This document shows, one piece after another, positions 4,857 to 32,425 of a DNA stretch of 64,000 nt. Under the pieces are notes generated by a model that saw only the letters and a program-made list of their open reading frames with translations, was not told the DNA's origin and ran no database searches. Position 1 is the first letter of the stretch. Every line of letters starts with the position of its first letter. This DNA is from a virus, in IMG/VR virus record IMGVR_UViG_3300033145_000192, positions 1 through 64,000 of that record; one strand, written 5' to 3'. Both the position numbers and the translations under genes were made by a program.

Positions 4857-5074
4857 TGATTGCCGCACTTGTTATCACTGGTGTCCTAGCAGTCGTCCTG
4901 TTCGGTGCAGCCATCTTCAATATGGCTCGCATGGGCAAGAACGTAATGGAGTTTCAGTTCGATGAATTCGGCGGCGGATTCTTCTGGCACTGTATTCTCG
5001 GGGGTTTTGCCGGTTTGTCGTTTACAGCATTTGTGGTGCTGCTAATCGTGCATCTACTCTCAATCTACGCTTGA
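4856..5074 (+). CDS. integral membrane protein
   Basis: The TAATG overlap with the previous gene fixes the start. The protein has an N-terminal helix (residues about 3-24) and a C-terminal hydrophobic segment (about 47-71) flanking a glycine-rich stretch. Its stop overlaps the -35 box of the promoter for the PARP operon. Confidence 0.65.
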   Translation: MIAALVITGVLAVVLFGAAIFNMARMGKNVMEFQFDEFGGGFFWHCILGGFAGLSFTAFVVLLIVHLLSIYA

Positions 5075-23634: not shown

Positions 23635-23706
23635 ATGGTTGAGGTTTTTTGTGCAGGTTTAATCGCAGGACTGTTGTTGGGGTATATTATCTACAGAAGG
23701 GGATGA
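23635..23706 (+). CDS. possible 23-residue membrane micropeptide
   Basis: A short frame (ATGGTTGAGG start) just after the promoter encodes MVEVFCAGLIAGLLLGYIIY plus RRG, a single membrane helix with a positive end. Its stop overlaps the first bases of tmRNA. It may be chance, but two similar micro-frames run into tRNAs elsewhere in the window. Confidence 0.3.
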   Translation: MVEVFCAGLIAGLLLGYIIYRRG

Positions 23707-24065
23707 AACGGCATCGACTCGCATGATGAAATGATGAATGCAGGCCGTGGAAGATACTCGGGCCACGTTAAAAAGGTATCGAAACTTTAATTGCCAAGAA
23801 CGTATTCAAGGCACGCCGTTACTACGGCATCCGCAGCACGGTTCGCCGTGCCGCAATCGTCGCTTAACCGATTGTAGTTAGGTCGTCTCCTAGACGAAAA
23901 TAGGACTCGTGCGGATATTCTCGTAAGCCGCAAGTTGTAAATAACGAGATAGTCGCTGGAACCAAGTAGCCAGATAGGTTGTTGGACCGATAAAACCAAC
24001 CAAGCCTGTGAAGAGTTTGTTGAAGATTGATGTAGAGGACTCGGGTTCGACTCCCGACATCTCCA
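23699..24065 (+). ncRNA. ssrA: tmRNA (one-piece) with unusual tag
   Basis: The acceptor strands pair GGGGATG (23699-23705) with CATCTCC (24058-24064), followed by discriminator A. A T-arm ACTCGGGTTCGACTCCCGA-type precedes the 3' end, and the 5' start matches the tmRNA pattern (GGGGATGAAACGGCATCGAC). The tag frame is 23793-23867: it begins AKNVFKARRYY, ends RRAAIVA and stops at TAA, 24 codons in total. CCA is not encoded. tmRNA rescues stalled ribosomes and tags the peptide for proteolysis. This tag is long and strongly basic, unlike usual ...ALAA tags, though it still ends hydrophobic. Confidence 0.9.
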
Positions 24066-24124
24066 TATTGGTTGTGGCCTCCTTTCGTAGCAGACCCCCG
24101 CTAGCATATCGGGTCATATATGCC

Positions 24125-24207
24125 AGGGATATACGCCACGCGGAGTAGAGCGGTCTTGTTTTCCGGCGCAGCAAGATGTGTGGTGGGTTCGACTCCCACT
24201 ATCCCCA
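24125..24207 (+). tRNA. tRNA-like gene with 13-nt anticodon loop (possible Gly TCC)
   Basis: Acceptor AGGGATA/TATCCCC (first pair A-C mismatched), D-arm with a CGC/GCG stem, T-arm GTGGG-TTCGACT-CCCAC. The anticodon stem TCTTG/CAAGA is perfect, but it encloses TTTTCCGGCGCAG. A TCC anticodon followed by six extra bases is one reading. Identity is uncertain. Confidence 0.55.
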
Positions 24208-29546: not shown

Positions 29547-30599
29547 ATGGCTACTATTCTCATCATTGGAACTGGAACGATTGGAGAACCTCTTATCGGA
29601 CTCTTTTGCACACATGCGAAAGACTTCGGTATAGATGAAATCCTCTTTCATAAAAGAACGCCGCTCAAAACGGATAGGTCAAAGGTCTTATCCCTTCAAA
29701 AAAGAGGAGCGTTGCTTTGTGTTGATAAGAGCACACGGACTTCCTTTCGTGCTCTTGGGATTGAACCGAAATACACACTCACAGAGGCAATGAATAAGGC
29801 AGATGTAGTTATCGACTGCACTCCATGTGGAAACAAAAATAAGGAGGCGTGGTATAGACATCAAGACTGGACCAAGGGATTTATTGCACAAGGCTCCGAA
29901 AAGGGCTTTGGCAAACCCTATGCTTTTGGAATAAACGATTCGGCGCTCATGCCAGAGATGGACAGGTATATTCAAGTCGTATCGTGCAACACGCATAACC
30001 TAGCAGCGATTATCCAAGTGTTGGCAGCAACTTCTACTGGATACAATGGGATACGAGAAGCGAACTTCCTATGTATCCGTCGTGCTAATGACATATCTCA
30101 AGTCAAGGGCTTTATGCCCAGTCCCACTGTCGGTGGACACAATGATAAGAAGTTTGGAACTCATCACGCTGCCGATGCACACAGACTGCTGTCTACTAAT
30201 GGACATGACGTAAAGATGTTCTCATCTGCACTGAAACTAAACACGCAATACATGCACACAATCTATTTCAACATTGAAATGAAAGACGCATTGGACCTGG
30301 AGTCCATACAAGACCAAATAGATTTGAGCCCTAGAATAGCTTGGACACACAAGAAGTCTGCAAACGAAGTGTTTTCTTTTGGTCGTGACCACGGACATTA
30401 CGGGCGTATACTGAACCAAACAGTATTCTGCCTACCATCACTAAGTGTTGTTGGCAACAAGGTCGTAGGATTTTGTTTCACTCCCCAGGATGGTAACTCA
30501 TTGGTATCGTCCGTAGCTAGTGCGCTGTGGCTACTAGACCCAGATGGCTATAAGAGTAAGCTGAGTGTTCTATACAACTACTTTTTCAACGAAATCTAA
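29547..30599 (+). CDS. glyceraldehyde-3-phosphate dehydrogenase-like oxidoreductase
   Basis: Rossmann NAD(P) site GTGTIGEP (residues 8-15), DVVIDCTPCG motif (86-95) and catalytic cysteine C147 in VVSCNTHN, the pattern of GAPDH, most like archaeal-type enzymes. The 350-residue length is typical. A GTGGAGG site precedes ATG 29547. A central-carbon enzyme inside a tRNA island is unexpected; a special aldehyde substrate rather than glycolysis is possible. Confidence 0.75.
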   Translation: MATILIIGTGTIGEPLIGLFCTHAKDFGIDEILFHKRTPLKTDRSKVLSLQKRGALLCVDKSTRTSFRALGIEPKYTLTEAMNKADVVIDCTPCGNKNKEAWYRHQDWTKGFIAQGSEKGFGKPYAFGINDSALMPEMDRYIQVVSCNTHNLAAIIQVLAATSTGYNGIREANFLCIRRANDISQVKGFMPSPTVGGHNDKKFGTHHAADAHRLLSTNGHDVKMFSSALKLNTQYMHTIYFNIEMKDALDLESIQDQIDLSPRIAWTHKKSANEVFSFGRDHGHYGRILNQTVFCLPSLSVVGNKVVGFCFTPQDGNSLVSSVASALWLLDPDGYKSKLSVLYNYFFNEI

Positions 30600-30874: not shown

Positions 30875-30899
30875 CCATCTTTTTCAAAGGAGTATTGTC

Positions 30900-31176
30900 A
30901 TGACGAGGAGCAGCTTTTAGCAACAAAGAGCTTAGGTCCAAGGAAATTCGTTTCAAGCCATCAACGGCAGAGAATGACCTGAAGACTAAGCGCAAACAAG
31001 TAAAGAAGTTTCTAGCAAAGGGCCACAAGGTCAAAATCACAGTCGTCTTTAGGCGCTGGCAGAAGAAAACAATGCTAGAGATTGCCAAAGAGAAGATGGA
31101 GCAGTTTGCCGCTCTAGGGCGCGTTACTACGCCAGCCAGATGGCAGGGCAACAAACTGACACTAACCATGAATTAA
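30900..31176 (+). CDS. IF3 C-terminal-domain-like protein, +1 frameshift needed
   Basis: The sequence after 30919 reads KELRSKEIRFKP, then KKFLAKGHKVKITVVFRRW and LEIAKEKMEQF, a clear match to the C-terminal domain of translation initiation factor IF3 (30S P-site region). This frame has no ATG, GTG or TTG start. An ATG at 30900 with AAAGGAG 8 bases upstream opens frame 0 for ATG-ACG-AGG-AGC-AGC-TTT and meets TAG at 30918. Slipping +1 on TTTT (TTT to TTT) enters the IF3 frame and gives 91 residues. The site has an internal AGGAG just upstream of the stop, as in the bacterial RF2 gene. A sequencing indel or an ATT start at 30946 are alternatives. Confidence 0.75.
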
Positions 31177-31187
31177 CACATGGTTAA

Positions 31188-31274
31188 GGACGCGGGTCCG
31201 GTTGGTCGAGGAGCATGTCCGGAAAACATGTATAGCGCGGAAGCGTTACAAGGGTTCGAATCCCTTCCCGTCCG
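31188..31274 (+). tRNA. tRNA-Ser (GGA)
   Basis: Acceptor GGACGCG/CCCGTCC (one mismatch), anticodon arm CATGT-CCGGAAA-ACATG with C at position 33, class II variable arm AGCGC-GGAA-GCGTT, T-arm AAGGG-TTCGAAT-CCCTT. Confidence 0.85.
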
Positions 31275-31288
31275 TAATAGGAGGCAGC

Positions 31289-32425
31289 ATGAAAGTAGTA
31301 ATACTTGGCGCAGCAGGAATGCAAGCAAGAGCGATTTATCAGGACCTTCTAGTGCAGGATGACGTTGAGGCAATACATCTCGTTGATTTGTCGTTTCCAC
31401 AACTTACTGCACTATCGAATGAGTTTCCGCACAACGGGAAAATCGTTCAAGTTCATGCAGCAGACCTCAGAAATGTAAGTTCAGTGGCCACAATAATGGG
31501 GTGGTGTGACGTAGCGATTAGCTGTGCGCCATACGACTTCAACTATGCTCTAGCAGTTCAGGCAATCGACAGCAAATGCTCGTTCGTTGACCTGGGTGGC
31601 AACAATGACATAGTTAGGTTGCAACTGGAGTTGAGCCACAAAGCAAGTGAAGCAGGAGTCCTAATCGTTCCTGACTGTGGACTAGCGCCAGGGGTGCCGT
31701 CAATTCTCACGGCGCAAGTTGTGAGAGACTTTGATACCGTTGACACGGTAGAGATTCTGTGCGGCGGATTGCCACAGCCCAAGTATCGTGATGGTTACCT
31801 GGACTACTCGTTGGTCTTTAGCGTGCAAGGATTGATTAACGAGTATACCGAAGACGCAATGACAATCGTTGATGGAAAGAAGGTGCAAATACCTTCACTT
31901 CTAGGAGATGTTGAGCCATTCGGGCACGACAACCTAGAGCTAGAAGCGGCTGTTACATCTGGCGGGATTTCTACATTGCCAGATACATTTGAGAGCGAAA
32001 TAAAGAACTTGGGCTACAAGACGCTCAGGTATCCTGGGCACTGGAATACTTTCAAGTTGCTTAAACAGCTTGGTGTGTTCTCTGTAAGCTCTCTCAGGCC
32101 GATATTTGAGAGACAACTCAAGGCGATACTAGATAAGAAACTGCCGGATATGGTTGTGTTTGCGCTAAGAGCAGACGGTCATACCGATGGAAAATTCTGC
32201 TACAGAGACTTCTACTTTAGGTTTGACCAGCCAAACGATGACACTACGGCAATGGCCGCAGCAACAGGCTGGTCGGCTTCGATTGTGGCCTTGATGATTG
32301 GACGCGGACAGACTATAATTGAGTGTGGAGCGATTCCACAAGAGATTTGTGTGGACCCAGAGCTTTTTATTGAAGAGTATGCTGCAAGGGGAATCAACAT
32401 AGAGGTAACAGACAATGACTCATAG
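31289..32425 (+). CDS. saccharopine dehydrogenase-like oxidoreductase
   Basis: N-terminal Rossmann fold with VVILGAAGMQARA (residues 3-15), ISCAPYDFNYALAVQA, FVDLGGN and DCGLAPGVP, the pattern of saccharopine reductase/lysine 6-dehydrogenase and carboxyspermidine-type enzymes. ATG 31289 follows TAGGAGGCAGC. The enzyme would act on an imine or amino acid using NAD(P). It is the second dehydrogenase in the tRNA island, 1.7 kb after the GAPDH-like gene; a joint pathway is possible but not shown. Confidence 0.8.
   Translation: MKVVILGAAGMQARAIYQDLLVQDDVEAIHLVDLSFPQLTALSNEFPHNGKIVQVHAADLRNVSSVATIMGWCDVAISCAPYDFNYALAVQAIDSKCSFVDLGGNNDIVRLQLELSHKASEAGVLIVPDCGLAPGVPSILTAQVVRDFDTVDTVEILCGGLPQPKYRDGYLDYSLVFSVQGLINEYTEDAMTIVDGKKVQIPSLLGDVEPFGHDNLELEAAVTSGGISTLPDTFESEIKNLGYKTLRYPGHWNTFKLLKQLGVFSVSSLRPIFERQLKAILDKKLPDMVVFALRADGHTDGKFCYRDFYFRFDQPNDDTTAMAAATGWSASIVALMIGRGQTIIECGAIPQEICVDPELFIEEYAARGINIEVTDNDS

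Follow-up and report, generated by a model that had tools for sequence, protein, structure and literature searches.

A C-domain-only form of translation initiation factor IF3 (mini-IF3) encoded by a phage appears to be made only by ribosomes which initiate at an ATG at position 30900 of the window (the whole stretch of 64,000 nucleotides analyzed here) and which then slip forward by one base, from UUU to UUU, at the stop codon of a short leader. We give this reading a probability of about 0.88. The sequence-only reading had proposed that the IF3-like gene was apparently controlled by an RF2-style +1 frameshift, and this was supported by comparison with two other phage genes, one on a 28-kb viral contig from a separate metagenome (L001) and one in a 185 kb record (G013). 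Programmed +1 frameshifting of mini-IF3 is thus well supported by comparison, and the anatomy of the slip site and its conservation in three phages can be read directly from the aligned sequences.

The window features between 30886 and 31274 described here are on the plus strand. The IF3 frame extends from stop to stop over 30904–31176 and, as had been claimed, lacks a start codon, no ATG, GTG, TTG or CTG being found ahead of the conserved KEIRF motif. Its upstream bound is a TGA (30901–30903) which overlaps the leader ATG (ATGA) in the +1, that is the IF3, frame, and since this overlap is present in all three mini-IF3 genes, entry into the IF3 frame from upstream is closed. The good ribosome site ascribed to the ATG was confirmed as AAAGGAG (30886–30892), 7 nt before the ATG; of the 177 ORFs in the genome with at least 120 aa, 113 have AGGA, GGAG or GAGG ahead of a start. 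The opening ATG-ACG-AGG-AGC-AGC-TTT-TAG-C was also confirmed. The zero-frame leader (30900–30920) encodes MTRSSF* (6 codons) and contains an internal Shine-Dalgarno (SD)-like AGGAG (30906–30910), the first A of which is 9 nt ahead of the slippery codon, followed by the slippery TTT-T (30915–30918), on which a P-site tRNA-Phe at UUU could re-pair with UUU in the +1 frame, and the leader stop TAG (30918–30920), then C. A +1 slip on TTTT merges the leader with the C-domain frame (MTRSSFSNKELRSKEIRFKPSTAEN..., 91 aa), giving a predicted fused product with the N-terminus MTRSSF-SNKELRSKEIRF...; 85 codons and a TAA lie beyond the slip (30919–31176).

The +1 frame matched Pfam IF3_C with 58.2 bits (cut-off 34.8, E = 8e-16). 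An AlphaFold run on the plain +1-frame part, without the leader residues, gave a pLDDT of 82, and the top PDB matches of the model were the IF3 C-domains 1tig (TMq 0.76) and 5lmn_X. The TIGR00168 score was 47 bits, under the cut-off of 60, and the IF3 N-domain (PF05198) was not found in G000 (the viral record which holds the window), G001 or G013. The window product is a C-domain-only mini-IF3, without the N-domain and linker of IF3 (InfC). We infer that it binds the 30S platform and affects subunit dissociation or initiation during infection.

The C-domain of L001 was 53% identical to that of the window, and the G013 mini-IF3, obtained in a profile search of phages carrying a mini release factor (IF3_C E = 1e-19), was 43% identical to the window; the three pairwise identities were 53, 43 and 45%. 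L001 opens with ATG AGG AGA AGT TTT TAA C (leader MRRSF*), its frame after the slip is IF3, and its internal SD (AGGAGAAGTTTT) has its first A 9 nt ahead of the slippery codon, as in the window. Its +1 frame crosses an IF3-type linker (KAQEKKKQKARKVKEIRF) before KEIRF and aligns to solved IF3s. G013 opens with ATG AGA TTT TAA C AAG AAA ATC AAA GAA ATA CGC (leader MRF*), so that the slip falls at codon 3, and the internal SD is absent. Common to all three genes were the ATGA overlap, a leader of 3–6 codons, UUU-UA(G/A)-C and F-(S)NK across the slip. The sequence-only reading had named a plain in-frame start in relatives as evidence against itself; none was seen, and both relatives need the same shift. 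It had also proposed that AGGAGC-AGC-TTTTAG be looked for in relatives, and there TTTT-A(A/G)-C was kept in both, but AGGAG is missing in G013 and both have TAA in place of TAG. All three stops (TAG, TAA and TAA) can be read by RF1, as had been suggested for the TAG, but TAG itself, and with it a restriction to RF1, is not conserved.

Changes between the window and L001 by codon position of the IF3 frame were 31/21/56, an excess at third positions; this frame is stop-free and shows codon-position bias, whereas the other two frames hold 4–8 stops. The sequences thus establish that the +1 IF3 frame is under purifying (coding) selection. G000 and the L001 contig have only IF3 in common, and G000 and G013 share 14 of about 230 proteins; because so little is shared, the mini-IF3 layout can be taken as conserved across distant phages. 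A hairpin was seen about 11–13 nt past the slip in two of the three genes (window, GCUUAG/CUAAGC, 30931–30992, z = -2.6; L001, 7 bp at 4948–4966, about 11 nt past the site, z = -2.2), none was found 3' of the slip site in G013, and the release factor genes described below were inconsistent in this respect. As the hairpins are modest in two of three genes, absent in the third and inconsistent in the release factor genes, a 3' stimulator is possible but unproven and we do not claim one.

When 2.9 million viral contigs were scanned for the motif GGAG-N(5-9)-ATG-N(0-6)-AGGAG-NNNY-TTTTAR, 57 matches were obtained, and an in-frame stop together with a +1 frame of more than 60 codons was found in L001 only, where that frame is an IF3 homologue. 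Viral contigs, bacterial genomes and GenBank phages were also scanned at the protein level for further mini-IF3s, and these scans returned full-length forms or L001 only. IF3_N together with IF3_C and ordinary starts was present in phage records G022, G028, G034 and G006, and the IF3 of phage 121Q (gp47) also has an ordinary start. No IF3 was found in the contigs of the TerL relatives G002–G005.

The G000 record is 177,375 bases long and, since about 114 bases are directly repeated at its ends, is probably a complete genome. It encodes RIIA/RIIB, an RNA ligase, a DNA ligase and a terminase with distant likeness to those of Bacillus phages. A tRNA island at window positions 24125–49252 holds over 40 tRNAs, including two tRNA-Phe(gaa) and one tRNA-Leu(gag), the tRNAs expected to slip at UUU and CUU. 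The mini-IF3 gene sits between tRNA-Glu (29450) and a tRNA-Ser (gga) found just 3' of it with ARAGORN and Rfam (31195–31274), which is context and has no part in the mechanism. Its flanks also hold unusual phage cargo, a type II GAPDH-like dehydrogenase (29547–30599) and a saccharopine-dehydrogenase-like protein (31289–32425). A tmRNA was found at 23699–24068 (Rfam 108 bits), for which ARAGORN predicts an unusual, long tag (AKNVFKARRYYGIRSTVRRAAIVA). An alternative genetic code in G000 was rejected, as TAG, TGA and TAA all terminate long ORFs (47/57/73).

A search of the whole of G000 for sites that combine an SD, slippery codon and stop with a long +1 frame lacking a start found exactly two prfB-like sites (SD at 8–9 nt, YTT, stop within an ATG frame), both of which lead into +1 frames of at least 80 codons. 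In 60 runs, first-order Markov genomes had 0.37 such sites per strand, none of which led into a +1 frame of at least 80 codons; the sites in G000 are more than chance. The second site lies outside the window, on the minus strand, in an RF1-like mini release factor gene (G000 146723–147401, equal to L015 2723–3401; frameshift site at 147296). Its zero frame starts at ATG 147401, encodes MNVTIEIRAAAGGADAKDLVVKFENVFRKVAAKEHL and ends AAG GAG CAT CTT TAG C, and its +1 frame reads SIELLDRAASYVVLEVGG...GVHRYQRVPPTERRGRVHTS...GSGPGGQ..., an RF1-type protein with domain 1 missing, with GGQ in SGPGGQ and PxT (PPT) in RVPPTE. The protein begins at EIRAAAGG of PCRF and scored 190 bits with TIGR00019 (cut-off 423). 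The gene does not encode a full-length RF1, domain 1 being absent. An identical site is present in G002 (CTAAGGAGCATCTTTAGCAT). The predicted structure of the mini release factor is of low certainty (pLDDT 74.5, pTM 0.49).

This gene belongs to a phage family which we compiled from an alignment of the leader part (39 loci, L102–L140, one of which is G002) together with G000 (n=40). In 30 of the 40 genes a +1 shift at CTT-stop was found at the homologous place, with TGA in 17, TAG in 11 and TAA in 2, and SD cores, where present, were mostly 8–9 nt ahead of CTT. Two of the remaining genes are open without a shift, and one of the unshifted genes, L121, aligned gaplessly through the junction, which gives independent support for +1 as the frame in use. 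The other eight have an in-frame TGA as if for Trp. An in-frame TGA near the junction was noted in L104, L112, L123, L124, L126, L127, L137, L138 and L096–L099; these are phages in which TGA probably codes for Trp and which bring an RF1-type factor of their own. In a 32-gene tree the identity of the stop changed at least 12 times, while the shift was kept in 30 of 32; the stop switches often while nearly all of the proteins are PxT-type. The design recurs in GenBank huge phage LR745208 (AGGGG-T-CTT-TGA-C). An IF3 search in 36 mini release factor records found G013 and three full-length IF3s, and the mini release factor site was TAG in all four; this association is small and kinship may explain it. 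A separate phage RF-like GGQ domain without PCRF (ArfB-like, 43% identical) was seen at about 5001–5350 of L093, the contig number of which is close to that of G002.

In the proposed mechanism ribosomes that have initiated at ATG 30900 would pause once UAG occupies the A site, and if release is slow the P-site tRNA-Phe would shift by one base, from UUU to UUU, and pair there just as before. The internal AGGAG would pair with the 16S anti-SD and aid the slip, by analogy with prfB. We infer that the slip occurs, at what rate it may do so and what the mini-IF3 does. Since the RF1-like gene (CTT-TAG with SD) and the mini-IF3 gene of the one phage both have UAG sites, their products should rise jointly when UAG termination or RF1 activity is limiting. 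That the phage senses termination efficiency through the mini-IF3 site, as the sequence-only reading had suggested, is a plausible idea, and the sister site in the RF1-like gene lends it weight. Sensing specific for RF1 is less sure because TAG occurs once and TAA twice, the SD is absent in G013 and the stop changes freely in the release factor family; the site may either sense termination generally or simply set a ratio.

The last of these possibilities, a real frameshift acting as a fixed-ratio dampener of expression and not as a sensor of RF1 or termination, is the alternative that survives best, and we hold it to be somewhat improbable yet worth serious consideration. It would fit with the failure of the mini-IF3 genes to maintain TAG and with the frequent switching among TGA, TAG and TAA in the mini release factor genes while the shift persists, but at every shifted site a stop is kept and never a sense codon, which would make the output depend on competition with release factors, and the base after the stop is C in all three IF3 sites.

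Initiation at the Ile codon of KEIRF as a non-canonical start, with the leader just an upstream minigene, appears very unlikely. E. coli infC has the start codon AUU, and in bacteria the control of infC acts through this start. With this precedent, the ATT at the Ile codon in both the window and L001 and the loose AAGG upstream in both speak for such a start; the codon is ATA in G013, however, a start there would remove part of the C-domain's first strand (E12–17 in the model), and it would leave unexplained the conserved leader, TTTTARC, ATGA and the coding of the linker 5' of the ATT in L001. Attenuation by the leader, with MTRSSF* as a regulatory minigene and termination-reinitiation as the route to IF3, would suit the shortness of the leaders (3–6 codons) but is less likely again, as in none of the three genes does the IF3 frame contain a start codon near the stop. 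One surplus T from an assembly or sequencing error, or a decaying gene, is the least likely of all, for the homopolymer run and the single contig of the window are set against the same layout (at least four T, then a stop) in L001 and G013 from other samples and phages, the purifying selection on the +1 frame and the sister site in the RF1-like gene, present in G002 as well. In-frame readthrough of the TAG was not supported, the zero frame past the TAG being without IF3 sequence.

For bacterial prfB, +1 frameshifting at the stop codon is textbook knowledge. The mini-IF3 site shares with prfB NUU-U before the stop and C after it, early in the gene, a started zero frame which ends at the stop while a +1 frame with no start of its own continues the protein, and, in the window and L001 and not in G013, an internal SD at 9 nt. 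It differs in that the product is an IF3 C-domain and not RF2, the codon UUU and not CUU, the stop UAG or UAA and not UGA, and the carriers phages. As the stop is TAG, TAA and TAA and never UGA, we consider that the site would work like that of prfB but is not one. The mini release factor genes of phages share with mini-IF3 a truncated translation factor, a +1 shift at YTT-stop and usually an SD, but have CTT and not TTT, place the slip at codon 32–52 within PCRF and use TGA, TAG or TAA. Bacterial infC and jumbo-phage IF3 (121Q gp47) have the same C-domain sequence and fold as mini-IF3, which by comparison has neither the N-domain nor an ordinary start; bacterial infC control is by the AUU start, whereas that of mini-IF3 would be via the frameshift.

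The E. coli prfB site (AGGGGG-TAT-CTT-TGA-C) has the same spacing as that from AGGAG to the slippery codon in the window, and pairing of the internal SD with the 16S tail is established for prfB (PMC12421855). A 2025 survey of bacteria found no prfB motif with TAG in 8,164 genomes and no programmed frameshift in prfA (PMC12421855). Every CUU-stop case in the RECODE set is prfB, and UUU before a stop is reported as one of the codons that come next to CUU in slipperiness (PMC10885494). Huge phages carry IF3, RF1 and RF2 (PMC7162821), and we found no report in the open-access literature of frameshifting in these genes of huge phages. The G000 mini release factor and RFH/PrfH (PMC1586002) are both release factors without domain 1; the former is a PxT RF1-type and frameshifted, and its prfH score was 83.9 against a cut-off of 166.65.

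In phages, stop-codon +1 shifting appears to serve both an initiation factor and release factors of RF1 type, with UAG and UAA besides UGA as stops. We tentatively suggest, at a little under even odds, a phage translation-factor regulon in which mini-RF1 and mini-IF3 would be made only when termination (here at UAG) lags, so that the virus would read how well termination proceeds in its host and adjust release and initiation/recycling jointly. If this is true, we know of no earlier initiation factor controlled by a frameshift, nor of any earlier UAG-gated autoregulation of RF1 type. The class of gene will be missed by automatic gene callers, since the frame has no start codon. The phage cases are natural experiments on what a +1 shift needs (CUU versus UUU, with or without an SD, three stops) and suggest that phages sense or manage termination.
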